Assembly: GCF_026427775.1 (NCBI RefSeq)
Contig: NZ_CP044532.1
Span: 806,001-870,000 of the forward strand
DNA: 64,000 bases
Source of the DNA: Arthrobacter sp. CDRTa11
GTDB lineage: Bacteria; Actinomycetota; Actinomycetes; Actinomycetales; Micrococcaceae
Direction of reading: 5' to 3'
The position numbers and the translations under genes were made by a program. Below, piece by piece: positions 58,480-63,690 of this stretch. How positions within the stretch are numbered: position 1 is the first letter of the stretch; the number at the start of each line of letters is the position of its first letter. A model generated the notes under the pieces. That model had not been told where the DNA came from. It saw only the letters and a list, made by a program, of their open reading frames with translations, and ran no database searches.

Positions 58480-58703
58480 TTGCCCCTAGCGTCGTCTATC
58501 TGCCTCCGCTCCGGTCGTGCCTGCGCGCCGGGAGGGCCCGCCGCTCGTCAACTGCACGTAAGGTTTGATGGACAACGCCTGGCGAGACTGTGAATCGACA
58601 CTGTGTTCCCAACAACTGTGCCCTTTCCACACGTGCCCGCTGGCGTTCACGGATCGGACCGGCGCCTGTTCATGGCGGTCTGACACATCACACAGGGGGA
58701 ACA

Positions 58704-60236
58704 ATGACAGTATTGCTGATCGGCGGCGCCGTACTTGCGGCCCTGCTCATCGCGGGATTCATCTTTTACACTTCGAGCATCCGGTTCGCCAAGCCGAATG
58801 AGGCCATGCTCATCACCGGCAAGAGCGACCCGAACACCACCGATGAAACGTCCGATGACCAGTCCCGCGTTATCATCAACAACCGGGCCTTCGTTAACCC
58901 GATCACAGAACGCGTCAGCCATATCTCGCTGTCCTCGCGCCAGGTCGAAGTCACCATTGAAGCCATTTCCAACAACGGTATCCAGCTCAAACTGGCCGGC
59001 GTTGCACAGGTGAAGGTGGGCGGTGACAAGATCTCCGTCCGCAAGGCAGCCCAGCGATTCCTTGACCAGCAGGACGCGATCGATCACTACACGCAGGAAA
59101 CCCTCTCGGGTTCACTGCGTTCCATCGTGGGCACCTTGAGCGTTGATGCGATCATCAAGGACCGCGCGCAGTTCGCAGCATCAGTGAAGGAAGAAGCCGA
59201 GCACTCCATGACCAACCAGGGTCTGGTGATCGACACCTTCCAGATCAAGTCTGTTGACGACGCCGGCGGCTACCTGAAGAACCTGGGGCGTCCCGAGGCT
59301 GCCCTGGTTGCACGGAACGCAAGCATTGCCGAAGCCAACTCCCAGCGTGAGGCCGCGGAAGCGAAGGCGCTCGCGGATCAGAAGACCGCTGAAGCCGAGC
59401 AGAAGCTGGCTCTTCGCCGCGCCGAGCTGAAGCAGGAAACGGATGCCCGCCAGGCCGAAGCTGACGCCGCTGGTCCGCTTGCCCATGCCGACCAGCAGCA
59501 GGCGATCATCCTGAAGAATCAGCAGGTGGTGGCACGCCAGGCGGAGCTTCGTGAAAAGGAACTCGACATCGAGGTCCGCAAGCCCGCAGACGCTGCCAAG
59601 TACAAGGTCGAAACTGAAGCAGCGGCTGATCTTTCCCGCCGTACCCGCATCTCGGAAGCTACCAAGGTCGAAGCGGCCGCTGAATTGGAAACCCGTAAGC
59701 TCAAGGCCGCCGGCAACGAGGTTGAAGCGAAGGCCTTGGCAGCGGCCAACACCGCCAAGGGCAACGCCGAGACGGAGATCAACAAGATTCGCGGCCTTGC
59801 CGAGGCTGAGGTCACCAAATCCAAGGGCATAGCAGAAGCTGACGTCATTGGCCTCCGTGGCCGGGCCGAAGCTGAAGCCATCGAGGCTCAGGCCAAGGCG
59901 TACAGCGAGTTCAATGAGGCCGCCATCCTGAACAAGCTCCTGGAGGTCCTGCCGTCCATCGCTAAGGAAATCGCGGCCCCGATGAGTGCCATCAGCAACA
60001 TGACAGTCATCTCCAACGATGGCGCCGGCCAGATGAGCAGGAACGTTGCCTCTGGTGTTCAGCAGACGGCGCAGATGCTCAAGGACACCACCGGGTTTGA
60101 CGTGATCGAGATGCTTAAGGGCTTCGGCGCCTCAACGCCGGCGGCAAACACCCCGGCCGCCGGAAATGGTGCCATCAAAGAACCGGCCCGCACCGGTGTG
60201 GTCAATGCGGCGTTGAAGGACGAATCAGCGGAGTAA
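58704..60236 (+). CDS. Flotillin/SPFH-domain membrane protein
   Basis: A 510-residue scaffold protein. One N-terminal span (LLIGGAVLAALLIAGFIFY) is followed by the SPFH/Band 7 domain (about 25-200, SLSSRQVEVTIEAISNNGIQLKLAGVAQVKVG). A long coiled coil rich in Ala/Glu/Lys repeats then extends from about 200 to 420 (AEANSQREAAEAKALADQKTAEA). The C-terminal part is polar. Flotillins organise membrane microdomains. AGGGGGAAC precedes ATG 58704. A strong hairpin follows the gene. Confidence 0.9.
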   Translation: MTVLLIGGAVLAALLIAGFIFYTSSIRFAKPNEAMLITGKSDPNTTDETSDDQSRVIINNRAFVNPITERVSHISLSSRQVEVTIEAISNNGIQLKLAGVAQVKVGGDKISVRKAAQRFLDQQDAIDHYTQETLSGSLRSIVGTLSVDAIIKDRAQFAASVKEEAEHSMTNQGLVIDTFQIKSVDDAGGYLKNLGRPEAALVARNASIAEANSQREAAEAKALADQKTAEAEQKLALRRAELKQETDARQAEADAAGPLAHADQQQAIILKNQQVVARQAELREKELDIEVRKPADAAKYKVETEAAADLSRRTRISEATKVEAAAELETRKLKAAGNEVEAKALAAANTAKGNAETEINKIRGLAEAEVTKSKGIAEADVIGLRGRAEAEAIEAQAKAYSEFNEAAILNKLLEVLPSIAKEIAAPMSAISNMTVISNDGAGQMSRNVASGVQQTAQMLKDTTGFDVIEMLKGFGASTPAANTPAAGNGAIKEPARTGVVNAALKDESAE

Positions 60237-60290: not shown

Positions 60291-60323
60291 ATGATGGCTG
60301 GGCTTTTCTTGAAAACCCATTCG

Positions 60324-60410
60324 CGGTGACGGTGGGATTTGAACCCACGTTGGCTTTGACACCAAACAACATTTCGAGTGTTGCACCTTCGGCCGCTCGG
60401 ACACGTCACC
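60324..60410 (-). tRNA. tRNA-Ser(CGA)
   Basis: An 87-nt serine tRNA. The acceptor stem GGTGACG (60404-60410 on the minus strand) pairs with CGTCACC, with G as discriminator. The anticodon loop CTCGAAA gives anticodon CGA (codon UCG). A long variable arm, typical of Ser, and the TTCAAATC T-loop are visible. CCA is not encoded. Confidence 0.95.
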
Positions 60411-60569
60411 AACCCATATAGGCTACCGGAGCATGGCTCGCATCCCCAAAACGGCAGCCTGCCCCGCTAAGGCCTGGCAAGGTTCACGGGCGGAAGTGGG
60501 GCCACAAGTGTCCGTTCGCGCTGTCAGGCTTTGTCCGGAAAGCCGGGCGGGACTAGATTCGTAAGCAAG

Positions 60570-61622
60570 ATGACTAAATCAGGCGAAGCAGCGCAGGCAA
60601 CCGCATATTGGACCACGGGTCCGGAGCATGGCGAACTCCGCACCGAGGAGCTGCCTGCCCTGGGGCCGGGCCAGGCTCTGGTCCGAACGCTCTATTCCGG
60701 GATCAGCAAGGGCACCGAAATTGTGGTGCATAAATGTTCGGTCCCGCCGCGGGTTGCCGAGGAGATGCGCGCCCCGCACCAGGAGGGCTCGTTTCCGTCA
60801 CCCGTGAAGTTCGGCTACCTGTCGGTGGGTGTGGTGGAGCAGGGGCCCGAGGACTGGGTGGGCCAGAAGGTGTTCTGCCTGAACCCGCACCAGGACAGGT
60901 ACGTTACCGCCACCGATGCCCTGACCAGGATCCCCGACGGCGTTCCCGCCCGCCGCGCTGTCCTGACCGGCACCGTGGAAACCGCCGTGAATGCCCTCTG
61001 GGAGGCTGGCCCGCGGCTGGGCGACCGGATCGCCGTGGTTGGTGCCGGCCTGGTGGGCGGCATGGTGGCCACCCTCCTGCGTACCTTCCCGCTGTCCCGC
61101 CTCCAACTGGTGGACCTGGATCCTGAACGGAAGCACCTCGCGGACCGGCTCGGCGTGGACTTCGCCCACCCGGATGACGCGCTGGCCGACTGCGACATCG
61201 TGTTCCACTGCTCGGCGTCCCAGGAGGGCCTGGAACGCAGCATGCAACTGGCCGGCGACGAAGGCGACATCATTGAGATGTCCTGGTACGCCAACCGTGA
61301 GGTGACGCTGCCGCTGGGCGAGGACTTCCACGCCCGCCGGCTCTCCATCCGCGCCAGCCAGGTGGGGGTGGTGTCCCGCGCCAGGCGCCACCGCCGGACC
61401 ACCGCCGACCGGCTGGACCTGGCCGTCTCGCTGCTACAGGACCCGGTGTTTGAGGCATTTATTACCGGCACGTCGCCTTTCGCCCAACTGCCGGACGTGG
61501 TGCAGAGCCTGGCCGACGGGAAGCTGGAAGCACTGTGCCACGTGATCGAATACCCCGGCGCCGGGGACTCCCAGCAGAACACAGACTCCGCAAAAGCCAC
61601 CGACCCTGAAGACAAGAGGTAG
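60570..61622 (+). CDS. Zinc-type (BchC-like) alcohol dehydrogenase family protein without the catalytic Cys
   Basis: A 350-residue medium-chain dehydrogenase fold. The usual catalytic-zinc motif (GxCGxD) is replaced by SGISKGTE (43-50), as in BchC-like members. The Rossmann loop is IAVVGAGLVGGMVATLL (about 161-177). Other marks are HCSASQEGLERSM and MSWYANREVTLPLGEDFHARRL. It is the first gene of an operon with a degenerate PTPS/QueD-fold protein (3-bp gap) and a GT4 glycosyltransferase (4-bp gap). Probable oxidoreduction of a sugar or pterin side chain is inference. ATG 60570 is chosen; the ribosome site is weak. Confidence 0.85.
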   Translation: MTKSGEAAQATAYWTTGPEHGELRTEELPALGPGQALVRTLYSGISKGTEIVVHKCSVPPRVAEEMRAPHQEGSFPSPVKFGYLSVGVVEQGPEDWVGQKVFCLNPHQDRYVTATDALTRIPDGVPARRAVLTGTVETAVNALWEAGPRLGDRIAVVGAGLVGGMVATLLRTFPLSRLQLVDLDPERKHLADRLGVDFAHPDDALADCDIVFHCSASQEGLERSMQLAGDEGDIIEMSWYANREVTLPLGEDFHARRLSIRASQVGVVSRARRHRRTTADRLDLAVSLLQDPVFEAFITGTSPFAQLPDVVQSLADGKLEALCHVIEYPGAGDSQQNTDSAKATDPEDKR

Positions 61623-61625
61623 CCC

Positions 61626-62021
61626 ATGTTCAGCCTGACCGTCCGTCGCCATTTCATGATTGCCCACAGCCTCCCGCGTGAAGCTTTCGGCCCGGCCCAG
61701 GCCCTGCACGGGGCAACCTTCGTGGCCGAGGTGGCCTTCCGCCGTCGGGCCCTGAACCAGGACGCTATCGTGCTGGACATCGGGGCGGCCGGCACCATCA
61801 TCGAGGGGGTGCTGGCAGGGCTGAACTACCGCAACCTGGACGAGCATCCTGATTTCGACGGCAAACTCACCACCACCGAGGCGCTCGCGGAGTACATCGC
61901 CCAGTCCGTCGCTGCACAGCTTAAGGGCGACGACGACGGCCGCGAACTGGCCGGGATCGACGTCACCCTGCGCGAAAACCCGGACGCCTGGGCAACCTAC
62001 ACGCTGGACATGGCCGGCTGA
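61626..62021 (+). CDS. Degenerate 6-carboxytetrahydropterin synthase (PTPS/QueD)-fold protein
   Basis: A 131-residue T-fold protein of the PTPS family. Zinc and catalytic residues are altered: H14 (FMIAHSL) is kept, but the catalytic Cys position is Ala24, the HGH pair is H28-G29-A30, and the Asp-His dyad is N67-Y68 (LNYRNL). The pterin-binding Glu is retained (E117 in LRENPDAW). So it is unlikely to make PTP or QueD product and may instead bind or act on a pterin. From memory, S. coelicolor SCO6650 is a structurally studied relative with the same losses and unknown function. It lies in a three-gene operon. Confidence 0.88.
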   Translation: MFSLTVRRHFMIAHSLPREAFGPAQALHGATFVAEVAFRRRALNQDAIVLDIGAAGTIIEGVLAGLNYRNLDEHPDFDGKLTTTEALAEYIAQSVAAQLKGDDDGRELAGIDVTLRENPDAWATYTLDMAG

Positions 62022-62025
62022 TACC

Positions 62026-63177
62026 GTGCTCAGCCTCCGTCTCCTGGTGCCCGCCAATATCCGTCACCACTCCGGCGGCAATGCCTATAACGCCCGGCTC
62101 GTGCAAGGGTTGAGGACGCTGGGCGCCCGGGTTGAGGTGCTGGCGGTGGAGGGTTCCTGGCCGGCAGCCAGCGCAAAGGAACGACGGCGGCTGGGGAGCC
62201 TTTTGGGAACCTGGGAGTCTTCCGCGGAAGCCACCCCGGGATCGGTCACCATGGTTGACGGACTGATCGCCTTGGGCGCTCCGGACGAACTCGAGTATGC
62301 AGCTGCTGCCCGAAGGCCGGCATGGGTTCTGCTGCACATGCCGTCCGCCGGCCATCCGGAGAGCGAGGCCCGCGCCCTGCGTGCAGCCGCCGGAGTGATC
62401 AGCACCAGCAGTTCCACCGCTGCCGCCATCAGGTCCCTGCACGGACTGGCGGAGGGCTACGTTGCACTGCCCGGAACGGACACGGCGCCCGTGGCGGAAG
62501 GCTCGGACCCGCCGCACATCATCGTGGTGGCGGCGCTCTTGGCCAACAAGGATCAACTGCTGACCGTGGAGGCCCTGGCACGGCTTCAGGACCTGGCATG
62601 GACAGCGTCGTTTGTGGGTTCTGACAGCGCCGATCCGGAGTACGCGGAGCTTGTGCGGGCGGCCGTCGCTGCCCGCGGGCTCCAAGACCGGCTGCAGATT
62701 ACAGGCCAGCTGACGGGAGAGCCACTGGACGACGAATGGAACAGGGCCGACCTGAGCCTGCTGGTGTCCCGGGCCGAAGCTTTCGGGATGGTGGTCACCG
62801 AATCCCTCGCCCGTGGCATACCCGTCATTGTTCGGGAGGGAACAGGGGCCATGGAGGCGCTGACGCTCGCAGCCCGCGCTGCAGGGGAGACCAATGGCGC
62901 CAGCGGCGCACTCCCCAGTACCGCACTGCCCGGCACCGCACTGCCCGGCGCCGCCGTCGGCCCACCCAGCACCCCCGACCTCCAGACGCTCGAAGCCGGA
63001 ACTCTGACAGCCACCAACCCGGAGCCGCTGGCCGCTGCCATCCGGGAATGGCTGGAGGAACCGAGGCTCCGCGCCGCCTGGCGGGCGGCCGCGCTTGCCT
63101 CCCGTGAACGCTTGCCGGGGTGGGAAGCCACAGCCCGGACGGTGCTGGAAACCGTGGCGGCACCCGGGGAAGACTGA
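62026..63177 (+). CDS. GT4-family glycosyltransferase
   Basis: A 383-residue GT-B glycosyltransferase. The N-terminal half has HHSGGNAYNARLVQGLRTLG (acceptor side). The C-terminal half has the donor-binding EAFGMVVTESLARGIPVIVREGTGAMEAL with the Glu-x7-Glu motif. A repetitive Ala/Leu/Pro/Thr insert (LPSTALPGTALPGAAVGPP) near residues 303-321 interrupts the fold. The GTG start at 62026 is 4 bp after the PTPS-fold gene. It probably attaches a sugar to a pterin-type or related small molecule made by the operon, which is inference. Confidence 0.88.
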   Translation: MLSLRLLVPANIRHHSGGNAYNARLVQGLRTLGARVEVLAVEGSWPAASAKERRRLGSLLGTWESSAEATPGSVTMVDGLIALGAPDELEYAAAARRPAWVLLHMPSAGHPESEARALRAAAGVISTSSSTAAAIRSLHGLAEGYVALPGTDTAPVAEGSDPPHIIVVAALLANKDQLLTVEALARLQDLAWTASFVGSDSADPEYAELVRAAVAARGLQDRLQITGQLTGEPLDDEWNRADLSLLVSRAEAFGMVVTESLARGIPVIVREGTGAMEALTLAARAAGETNGASGALPSTALPGTALPGAAVGPPSTPDLQTLEAGTLTATNPEPLAAAIREWLEEPRLRAAWRAAALASRERLPGWEATARTVLETVAAPGED

Positions 63178-63183
63178 CGCTGG

Positions 63184-63690
63184 CTAGAGTCGGGTGCGGT
63201 GCCCGGCGAAGAATTCCCTGAGCAGCGCACCGCATTCGTCCTCCCGGACACCCGCGTAAACCTCTACCCAATGGTTGAGGCGGCGCTCCCGGAGCACGTC
63301 AAACACTGAGCCTGCCGCGCCCGCCTTCTCATCCCACGCGCCAAAAACCACCCGGGGGATCCGGGCCAGCACCACTGCACCTGCGCACATGGCGCATGGT
63401 TCCAGGGTGACCACCAGCGTGCAGTCCGCCAGCCGCCAGCCGTCCGCGGTACCGCCGTCGTGCAGGGAGAGTTCCCGCAGCCGGTCAGCCGCCTGGCGAA
63501 TTGCGACGATCTCGGCGTGGGCGGTGGGGTCTCCGAGGGCCTCCCGCTGGTTCCGCCCCGAACCCAGCACCGCGCCGTCAGGCCCTATCACCACGGCGCC
63601 AATCGGCACATCCTCGGTGGCGAGTGCCCGCCTGGCCTCTGCCAGGGCAAGGCCCATCCACTCGCTGTATTTCTTTTGTGCGGGGACCAT
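63184..63690 (-). CDS. tadA: tRNA adenosine(34) deaminase (TadA)
   Basis: A 168-residue zinc deaminase. The active site has H58 and E60 (THAE-type HAEIVAI) with C99 and C102 (PCAMC). EDVPIGAVVIGPDG precedes it. It converts A34 to inosine in tRNA-Arg. The start ATG 63690 gives normal length. It converges on the glycosyltransferase gene with a 6-bp gap. A broader cytidine or guanine deaminase role cannot be excluded from sequence alone. Confidence 0.88.
   Translation of the reverse strand: MVPAQKKYSEWMGLALAEARRALATEDVPIGAVVIGPDGAVLGSGRNQREALGDPTAHAEIVAIRQAADRLRELSLHDGGTADGWRLADCTLVVTLEPCAMCAGAVVLARIPRVVFGAWDEKAGAAGSVFDVLRERRLNHWVEVYAGVREDECGALLREFFAGHRTRL

Follow-up and report, generated by a model that had tools for sequence, protein, structure and literature searches.

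The closest solved relative of the protein that concerns us here is SCO6650, which in its structure paper was reportedly described as having neither zinc nor PTPS activity; that structure has been available since 2008 as PDB entry 3d7j. Passages of PMC5445326 give FGPAQ as the signature of the PTPS-IV proteins and place them in a neighbourhood of PF00925 and PF01872 genes, and a review states, citing unpublished work, that PTPS-IV serves F420 biosynthesis, the role of PTPS-V being unclear (PMC5041015). Pteridine glucosyltransferases, according to passages of PMC3546692, occur in cyanobacteria. We herein describe a tight operon of three genes (60570-63177) in a 64,000-nucleotide stretch of DNA from Arthrobacter sp. 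CDRTa11 (the window, that is, the whole of the DNA that was analysed), which encodes a zinc-less dehydrogenase, a T-fold protein of the FGPAQ/SCO6650 family and a GT4 glycosyltransferase. We give about an even chance to the explanation that this trio is the conserved core of an SCO6650-type (FGPAQ, 'PTPS-IV') pathway, which would produce a glycosylated metabolite of the pterin or diaminopyrimidine type from GTP.

According to the list of open reading frames (ORFs), the T-fold gene (61626..62021, plus strand) follows the dehydrogenase gene (60570..61622, plus strand) after 3 bases, and the glycosyltransferase gene (62026..63177, plus strand, GTG start) follows after another 4; these are the three packed ORFs described in the earlier note, which was made from the sequence alone, with the dehydrogenase taken from the ATG at 60570 (an alternative start of the same ORF is the TTG at 60531). 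The T-fold protein is the single PF01242 match in the whole genome (one contig of 5.16 Mb), scoring 87.3 bits against a cut-off of 22.4, and both its fold and this match place it within the T-fold/PTPS superfamily. Aligned to E. coli QueD, which has H14, C24, an HGH motif, D67, H68 and E117, it carries A24, H28-G29-A30, N67-Y68 and E117, precisely as had been called earlier, so that CxxxHGH reads AxxxHGA and the Asp-His dyad is replaced by Asn-Tyr. Moreover, the QueD model TIGR03367 reached only 37.5 bits on this protein, against a cut-off of 89.25. Residues 21-25 of the window protein read FGPAQ, and the sole PDB match returned by a single-sequence search was 3d7j, which bears out the earlier naming of SCO6650 as a similar protein.

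Across the FGPAQ/SCO6650 family H14, A24, H28 and E117 are conserved. No row of the family alignment (158 rows) has the Cys or the Asp-His pair, and most rows also lack the third zinc His; HGH is kept in 27 of the 158 rows (a redundant set), hence the loss of H30 is not family-wide. Since every row has A24 and almost every row Y68, we read the catalytic residues as replaced rather than lost: the earlier description was right that Cys, HGH and Asp-His are absent, and only the word 'lost' has to be given up. A phylogenetic tree was calculated from 63 hand-chosen rows out of 168, nine canonical PTPS rows among them and with long branches flagged; in it each of the three groups forms one side of a branch, and the FGPAQ family stands apart from canonical PTPS. 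Judged by its sequence, the T-fold protein is a member of the FGPAQ/SCO6650 family and not a decaying QueD. Two side observations concern this family. A group of loci (L040-L051, family f18) encodes Ala24 PTPS-like proteins that retain HGH, mostly in the order RibD, dehydrogenase, PTPS, GT4, methyltransferase; going by their residues, these proteins are natural zinc-site intermediates for structural study. An orphan member with FGSAQ instead of FGPAQ (L054:12001-12423) lies on a plasmid of Streptomyces anthocyanicus, adjoining MEKHLA and cupin genes, with dehydrogenase, GT4, RibA and RibD not matched nearby.

To describe the gene neighbourhoods, we scanned the GTDB species genomes with a single pattern, which yielded at least 588 relatives, the best 80 of 588 being kept as named loci; together with 20 further genome stretches and 7 plasmid stretches they make up the 107 loci counted here, the window locus included. 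These loci were divided, after their gene order was known, into 42 of the trio type (L032, L033, L057, L105-L142 and L144; all Arthrobacter-like or Sinomonas) and 65 others, among which Arthrobacter sp. H20 (L143) is counted since it has a full cluster. The dehydrogenase was matched in 42/42 trio-type loci and GT4 in 38/42, while methyltransferase, RibD, RibA, CDP-alcohol transferase, LPG-TM protein, creatininase and the other counted families were matched in 0/42. The other loci carry the same core (dehydrogenase in 63/65, GT4 in 62/65) within a longer cluster that has a methyltransferase in 59/65, RibD in 46/65, GTP cyclohydrolase II (RibA) in 35/65, one or the other of RibA and RibD in 59/65, a CDP-alcohol transferase in 41/65, an LPG-TM protein in 38/65 and a creatininase-family hydrolase in 21/65, 17 of these above 200 bits. 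Six loci have neither RibA nor RibD; three of them (L150, L170, L175) are short or at a contig end and three (L054, L157, L161) are not obviously so. The three genes therefore recur together in relatives, as the earlier note had required of its proposal, and of the neighbours that it had guessed the SAM methyltransferase and GTP cyclohydrolase recur as well, whereas no HAD protein stood out among the neighbours looked at, no search having been aimed at HAD. Hosts include Streptomyces, Actinomadura, Nocardiopsis, Micromonospora, Kocuria, Microbacterium, Thioalkalivibrio, Derxia, Rhizobium, Methylosinus, Thiodictyon and a Gemmatimonadota metagenome-assembled genome, the gene set thus spanning at least three phyla (Actinomycetota, Pseudomonadota and Gemmatimonadota), and 21 plasmid records also contain a match. 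Sulfatase (9/65), FkbM (4/65) and cytochrome b561 (3/65) were considered as pathway parts and dismissed, as they recur too weakly, and an unbiased ORF clustering of 70 loci was set aside because of its many antisense artefacts.

The enzymes of the fuller clusters point to a GTP-derived substrate. All cluster RibD proteins that were scanned (24/24, out of 46) contain RibD_C and lack the deaminase domain, whereas the housekeeping RibD of the window genome has both domains in the same scan; from such a deaminase-less reductase, retention of the 2-amino group may be expected. RibD_C is fused to GTP cyclohydrolase II in 7 of these 24 proteins (L143, L145, L146, L147, L152, L163, L168), and we note that all seven fusion loci have Tyr105 and none has a creatininase match. 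Among 34 cyclohydrolases from the clusters, not counting E. coli RibA, the housekeeping gene and a fragment from L151, the position of E. coli Tyr105 is occupied by Tyr in 16 and by one of Met, His, Gln and Ile in the other 18. A strong creatininase (>200 bits) accompanies 0/16 of the Tyr types and 17/18 of the others (Fisher p 1.5e-8, ignoring kinship), the single exception, L149, ending at a contig end; when the weak matches (85-89 bits, L176 and L182) are also counted, the figures become 2/16 and 17/18 (p 1.6e-6, ignoring kinship). In S. coelicolor, SCO6655 is said, in a 2006 paper, to make the formyl compound FAPy owing to a Met at the Tyr105 position. BrbF, a member of the creatininase family, has been shown to act as a formamidase on the FAPy compound (passages of PMC9478397). 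Taken together, the correlation, the reported behaviour of SCO6655 and the chemistry of BrbF lead us to predict two routes to one diaminopyrimidine, either directly (Tyr105) or through FAPy and a formamidase. SCO6655 is also found in a table of genes mostly rising in stationary phase (PMC2853524).

The other two products of the operon would act on this substrate. The dehydrogenase is a medium-chain enzyme of the polyol/alcohol-dehydrogenase fold with a weak similarity to BchC: TIGR01202 is its best NCBIfam match, at 39.2 bits far below the cut-off of 291.25, so that the earlier label 'BchC-like' stands for resemblance and not for membership. We aligned it to E. coli Tdh, using what we take to be the catalytic and structural zinc ligand positions of that enzyme; C38, H63 and E64 align with S46, Y83 and L84, and the structural-zinc loop is mostly deleted, three of its four Cys lying inside the deletion. 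Of the ligands that characterise the zinc-dependent alcohol dehydrogenases of the medium-chain dehydrogenase/reductase superfamily, the catalytic set and most of the structural set are thus missing, in agreement with the missing catalytic zinc motif noted earlier, and the probable function is an NAD(P)-dependent oxidation of a side-chain hydroxyl. The GT4 assignment was likewise upheld, as the protein matches PF00534 (E 1.5e-19) and has an intact donor-site motif, in which K175 and E251 never vary, and E259 hardly ever, over 30 rows. The GT4 profile matches the pteridine glucosyltransferase BGluT (5ze7) with E 1.8e-13. Within the GT4 gene we also observed a 15-base tandem repeat of 3.2 copies (62907-62954), encoding a low-complexity, TALPG-like stretch that separates the donor-site motif from the C-terminal part.

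The trio of Arthrobacter is neither a chance arrangement, given the at least 588 relatives and the presence of the T-fold and dehydrogenase genes in 31/31 sampled genomes of the genus, nor a pseudogene or remnant, which is rejected by the latter figure and by the dN/dS values. Median dN/dS is 0.18 for the dehydrogenase (34/36 pairs), 0.17 for the T-fold gene (36/36) and 0.29 for GT4 (29/32), pairs with dS >=1.5 having been dropped (2/36, 0/36 and 3/32, respectively), which indicates purifying selection. In the tree the trio rows are nested within lineages that have full clusters (16 rows, 100/100); Arthrobacter and Sinomonas group together at 87/91. The nesting suggests that the Arthrobacter trio is a reduced form of a fuller cluster. 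A separate observation is that some Arthrobacter genomes contain a second RibD_C/GTP cyclohydrolase II locus, such as G008:C16:70917-74408 with an open frame of 626 aa; a second cyclohydrolase in a frame of >600 aa is present in 8/31 genomes of the genus, the window genome not being one of them.

We propose the following order of events. GTP cyclohydrolase II would open GTP to 2,5-diamino-6-ribosylamino-pyrimidinone phosphate, directly if Tyr105 is present; where the Tyr has been lost, as the correlation of residue and gene and the named precedents for the chemistry indicate, FAPy would be formed and passed to a creatininase-type formamidase. The deaminase-less RibD_C reductase, to judge from its domain content, would then convert the ribosyl to a ribityl chain and leave the 2-amino group in place, and the zinc-less dehydrogenase would oxidise a side-chain hydroxyl. 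In the weakest step of the scheme, the T-fold protein may hold the 2-amino-4-oxo ring via Glu117, with Tyr68 replacing the Cys/Asp-His machinery, and promote ring closure or a side-chain rearrangement. Finally, GT4 would add a sugar, the methyltransferase, where present, a methyl group, while attachment and flipping of a lipid may fall to the CDP-alcohol transferase and LPG-TM protein. In Arthrobacter only the genes of the last three steps (dehydrogenase, T-fold protein and GT4) are encoded together, and hence housekeeping intermediates of riboflavin or folate would have to supply the substrate. A bolder version of this scheme, which we consider distinctly improbable, is a dihydropterin route independent of GTP cyclohydrolase I: cyclohydrolase II, with or without the formamidase, and the deaminase-less RibD would yield 2,5-diamino-6-ribitylamino-pyrimidinone phosphate, the dehydrogenase would make the 2' ketone and the A24/Y68 T-fold protein would close the 5-amino group on this ketone, followed by glycosylation and methylation and, in complete clusters, by attachment to a lipid and flipping across the membrane. 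GTP cyclohydrolase I, itself a T-fold enzyme, forms the same bond after its Amadori step.

Several observations weigh against a GTP-derived glycosylated product. The window genome yielded no second GTP cyclohydrolase II, the one match being the housekeeping RibA, and queries with cluster RibD retrieved only the housekeeping RibD. Since no dedicated RibA or cluster RibD was found and the genome's own RibD has a deaminase, an amino-retaining precursor is not assured in Arthrobacter, although the 12 PF01872 matches of the genome are candidate substitutes for the cluster RibD. Searches of the window genome for the creatininase and the cluster methyltransferase were negative as well, the latter being detected in both other actinobacteria searched (one of them the source of the query); one of these searches for cluster genes ran without a positive control. 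In the fuller clusters, 12/21 creatininase-bearing loci have no RibD match, and five such genomes have only weak RibD matches elsewhere; RibD is present in five other loci with a strong creatininase, so creatininase and RibD are not simple alternatives. GT4 is unmatched in 4/42 trio-type loci (L118, L124, L127, L139) and in 3/65 others, which leaves the dehydrogenase and the T-fold protein as the firmest pair. BGluT is not the top match of the GT4 profile, as higher scores go to D-inositol-3-phosphate glycosyltransferase, PimA and others, and the VIA-align list for the dehydrogenase is nearly tied, polyol dehydrogenases standing 1-2.5 Z above ordinary alcohol dehydrogenases, and fixes no substrate. 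We infer the 2-amino pyrimidine or pterin substrate from GTP, its oxidation, the ring or side-chain step and the glycosylation alike. The earlier interpretation can be kept in part: a glycosylated pterin-like small molecule fits, and the GTP cyclohydrolase and methyltransferase neighbours recur in relatives, but the Arthrobacter trio stands alone and the cluster genes were not found in its own genome.

These missing genes, along with the presence of the T-fold and dehydrogenase genes throughout the genus, would also fit a recruitment of the trio to a different pathway after loss of the GTP-derived module, for example for a cell-envelope or thiol glycoside, the higher-scoring GT4 structures including D-inositol-3-phosphate glycosyltransferase, PimA and BshA-type enzymes. 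However, GT4 is so broad a family that its top matches say little about the acceptor, the trio shows the same conserved PTPS residues as the full clusters, and its place in the tree is within the lineages of the latter; recruitment is thus, in our opinion, unlikely but deserves attention. The T-fold protein could instead be a non-catalytic scaffold or sensor presenting a bound pterin to the dehydrogenase and GT4. Its absent Cys and Asp-His, the third zinc His missing from most rows and the retained Glu117 would agree with such a role, yet the invariant A24, the near-invariant Y68 and a sister group with all three zinc His point to a changed rather than a dead site. The constancy of the dehydrogenase and T-fold pair is what one expects of consecutive enzymes, although a complex would give the same, and altogether we find the scaffold rather doubtful.

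Membership in a described pathway appears far less probable. The PF01242 match, the common T-fold and the many records annotated as 6-carboxytetrahydropterin synthase would speak for a queuosine (QueD), biopterin (PTPS-II) or folate (PTPS-III/VI) enzyme, a function that is hardly credible and that we reject given the altered CxxxHGH and Asp-His residues and the TIGR03367 score; the protein also stands apart from the nine canonical rows in the tree. A role of the FGPAQ family in F420 biosynthesis would follow from joining the PTPS-IV signature (passages of PMC5445326) with the statement on PTPS-IV and this archaeal cofactor in the review (PMC5041015). This role is very improbable, and for Arthrobacter it is rejected, since CofG was not found in 5/5 Arthrobacter genomes searched, the window genome included, but was above cut-off in 2/2 other actinobacteria.

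A tRNA-Ser (cga) gene (60323-60410, minus strand) lies just upstream of the operon, which also has on its upstream side a putative flotillin/SPFH-like ORF (58590-60236), named by eye from the sequence. In a set of 42 relative loci (L105-L144, L033, L057) the flotillin-like gene was matched in none, and hence the upstream flank is not conserved; in the same set tadA lies downstream of the trio in 37/42. In the window this TadA-type deaminase gene (63184-63690) lies 6 bases away from GT4 in convergent orientation; given this orientation and a score barely above the TadA cut-off (152.2 bits against 150), we rejected it as a member of the operon set.

What makes the gene set worth pursuing is that it recurs in at least three phyla and includes a protein whose structure has long been solved, and that no product for the FGPAQ/SCO6650 family was found in the open-access literature, subscription journals being outside the scope of the search. 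The expression 'undescribed pathway', used earlier, is nevertheless too strong, as both the family and the PF00925/PF01872 genes around it have been published (passages of PMC5445326). In the Arthrobacter version there are just three genes to explain, in a kind of soil bacterium that is easy to grow and in which one deletion and a metabolome comparison could name the product, and for the fuller clusters the coupling of Tyr105 with the formamidase family gives a testable first intermediate. If the ring-closing version were true, it would be a new way to make pterins.

Of the known systems, the PTPS-IV cluster-node of PMC5445326 shares with the window locus FGPAQ and, in relatives, nearby PF00925 and PF01872 genes; the window locus differs in that these neighbours, which define a neighbourhood rather than a residue criterion, are absent from the window locus and from all 42 trio-type loci, and in that the dehydrogenase, GT4, methyltransferase and creatininase go unmentioned in passages of that paper. 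As to SCO6650, the cluster of the Streptomyces loci (the S. coelicolor locus being outside the compared set) is longer than the three genes of the window, as it also has methyltransferase, CDP-alcohol transferase and LPG-TM protein, mostly along with GTP cyclohydrolase II and creatininase. With QueD/PTPS-I and PTPS-II the window protein shares the T-fold, the first two zinc His (H14, H28) and Glu117, but it has neither the catalytic Cys nor the Asp-His pair, and its third zinc His is Ala. PgtA/BGluT (5ze7, 5zer) is a glycosyltransferase acting on a pterin that the window GT4 profile matches, although many other GT4 enzymes score higher and a pterin-type acceptor of the window enzyme is only presumed. 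The BrbF system, finally, resembles the fuller clusters in that GTP cyclohydrolase II and creatininase families occur in one stretch in 19 relative loci (17 strong), but according to passages of PMC9478397 BrbF serves riboflavin, whereas here the creatininase belongs to an FGPAQ cluster, and none turned up in the window genome.

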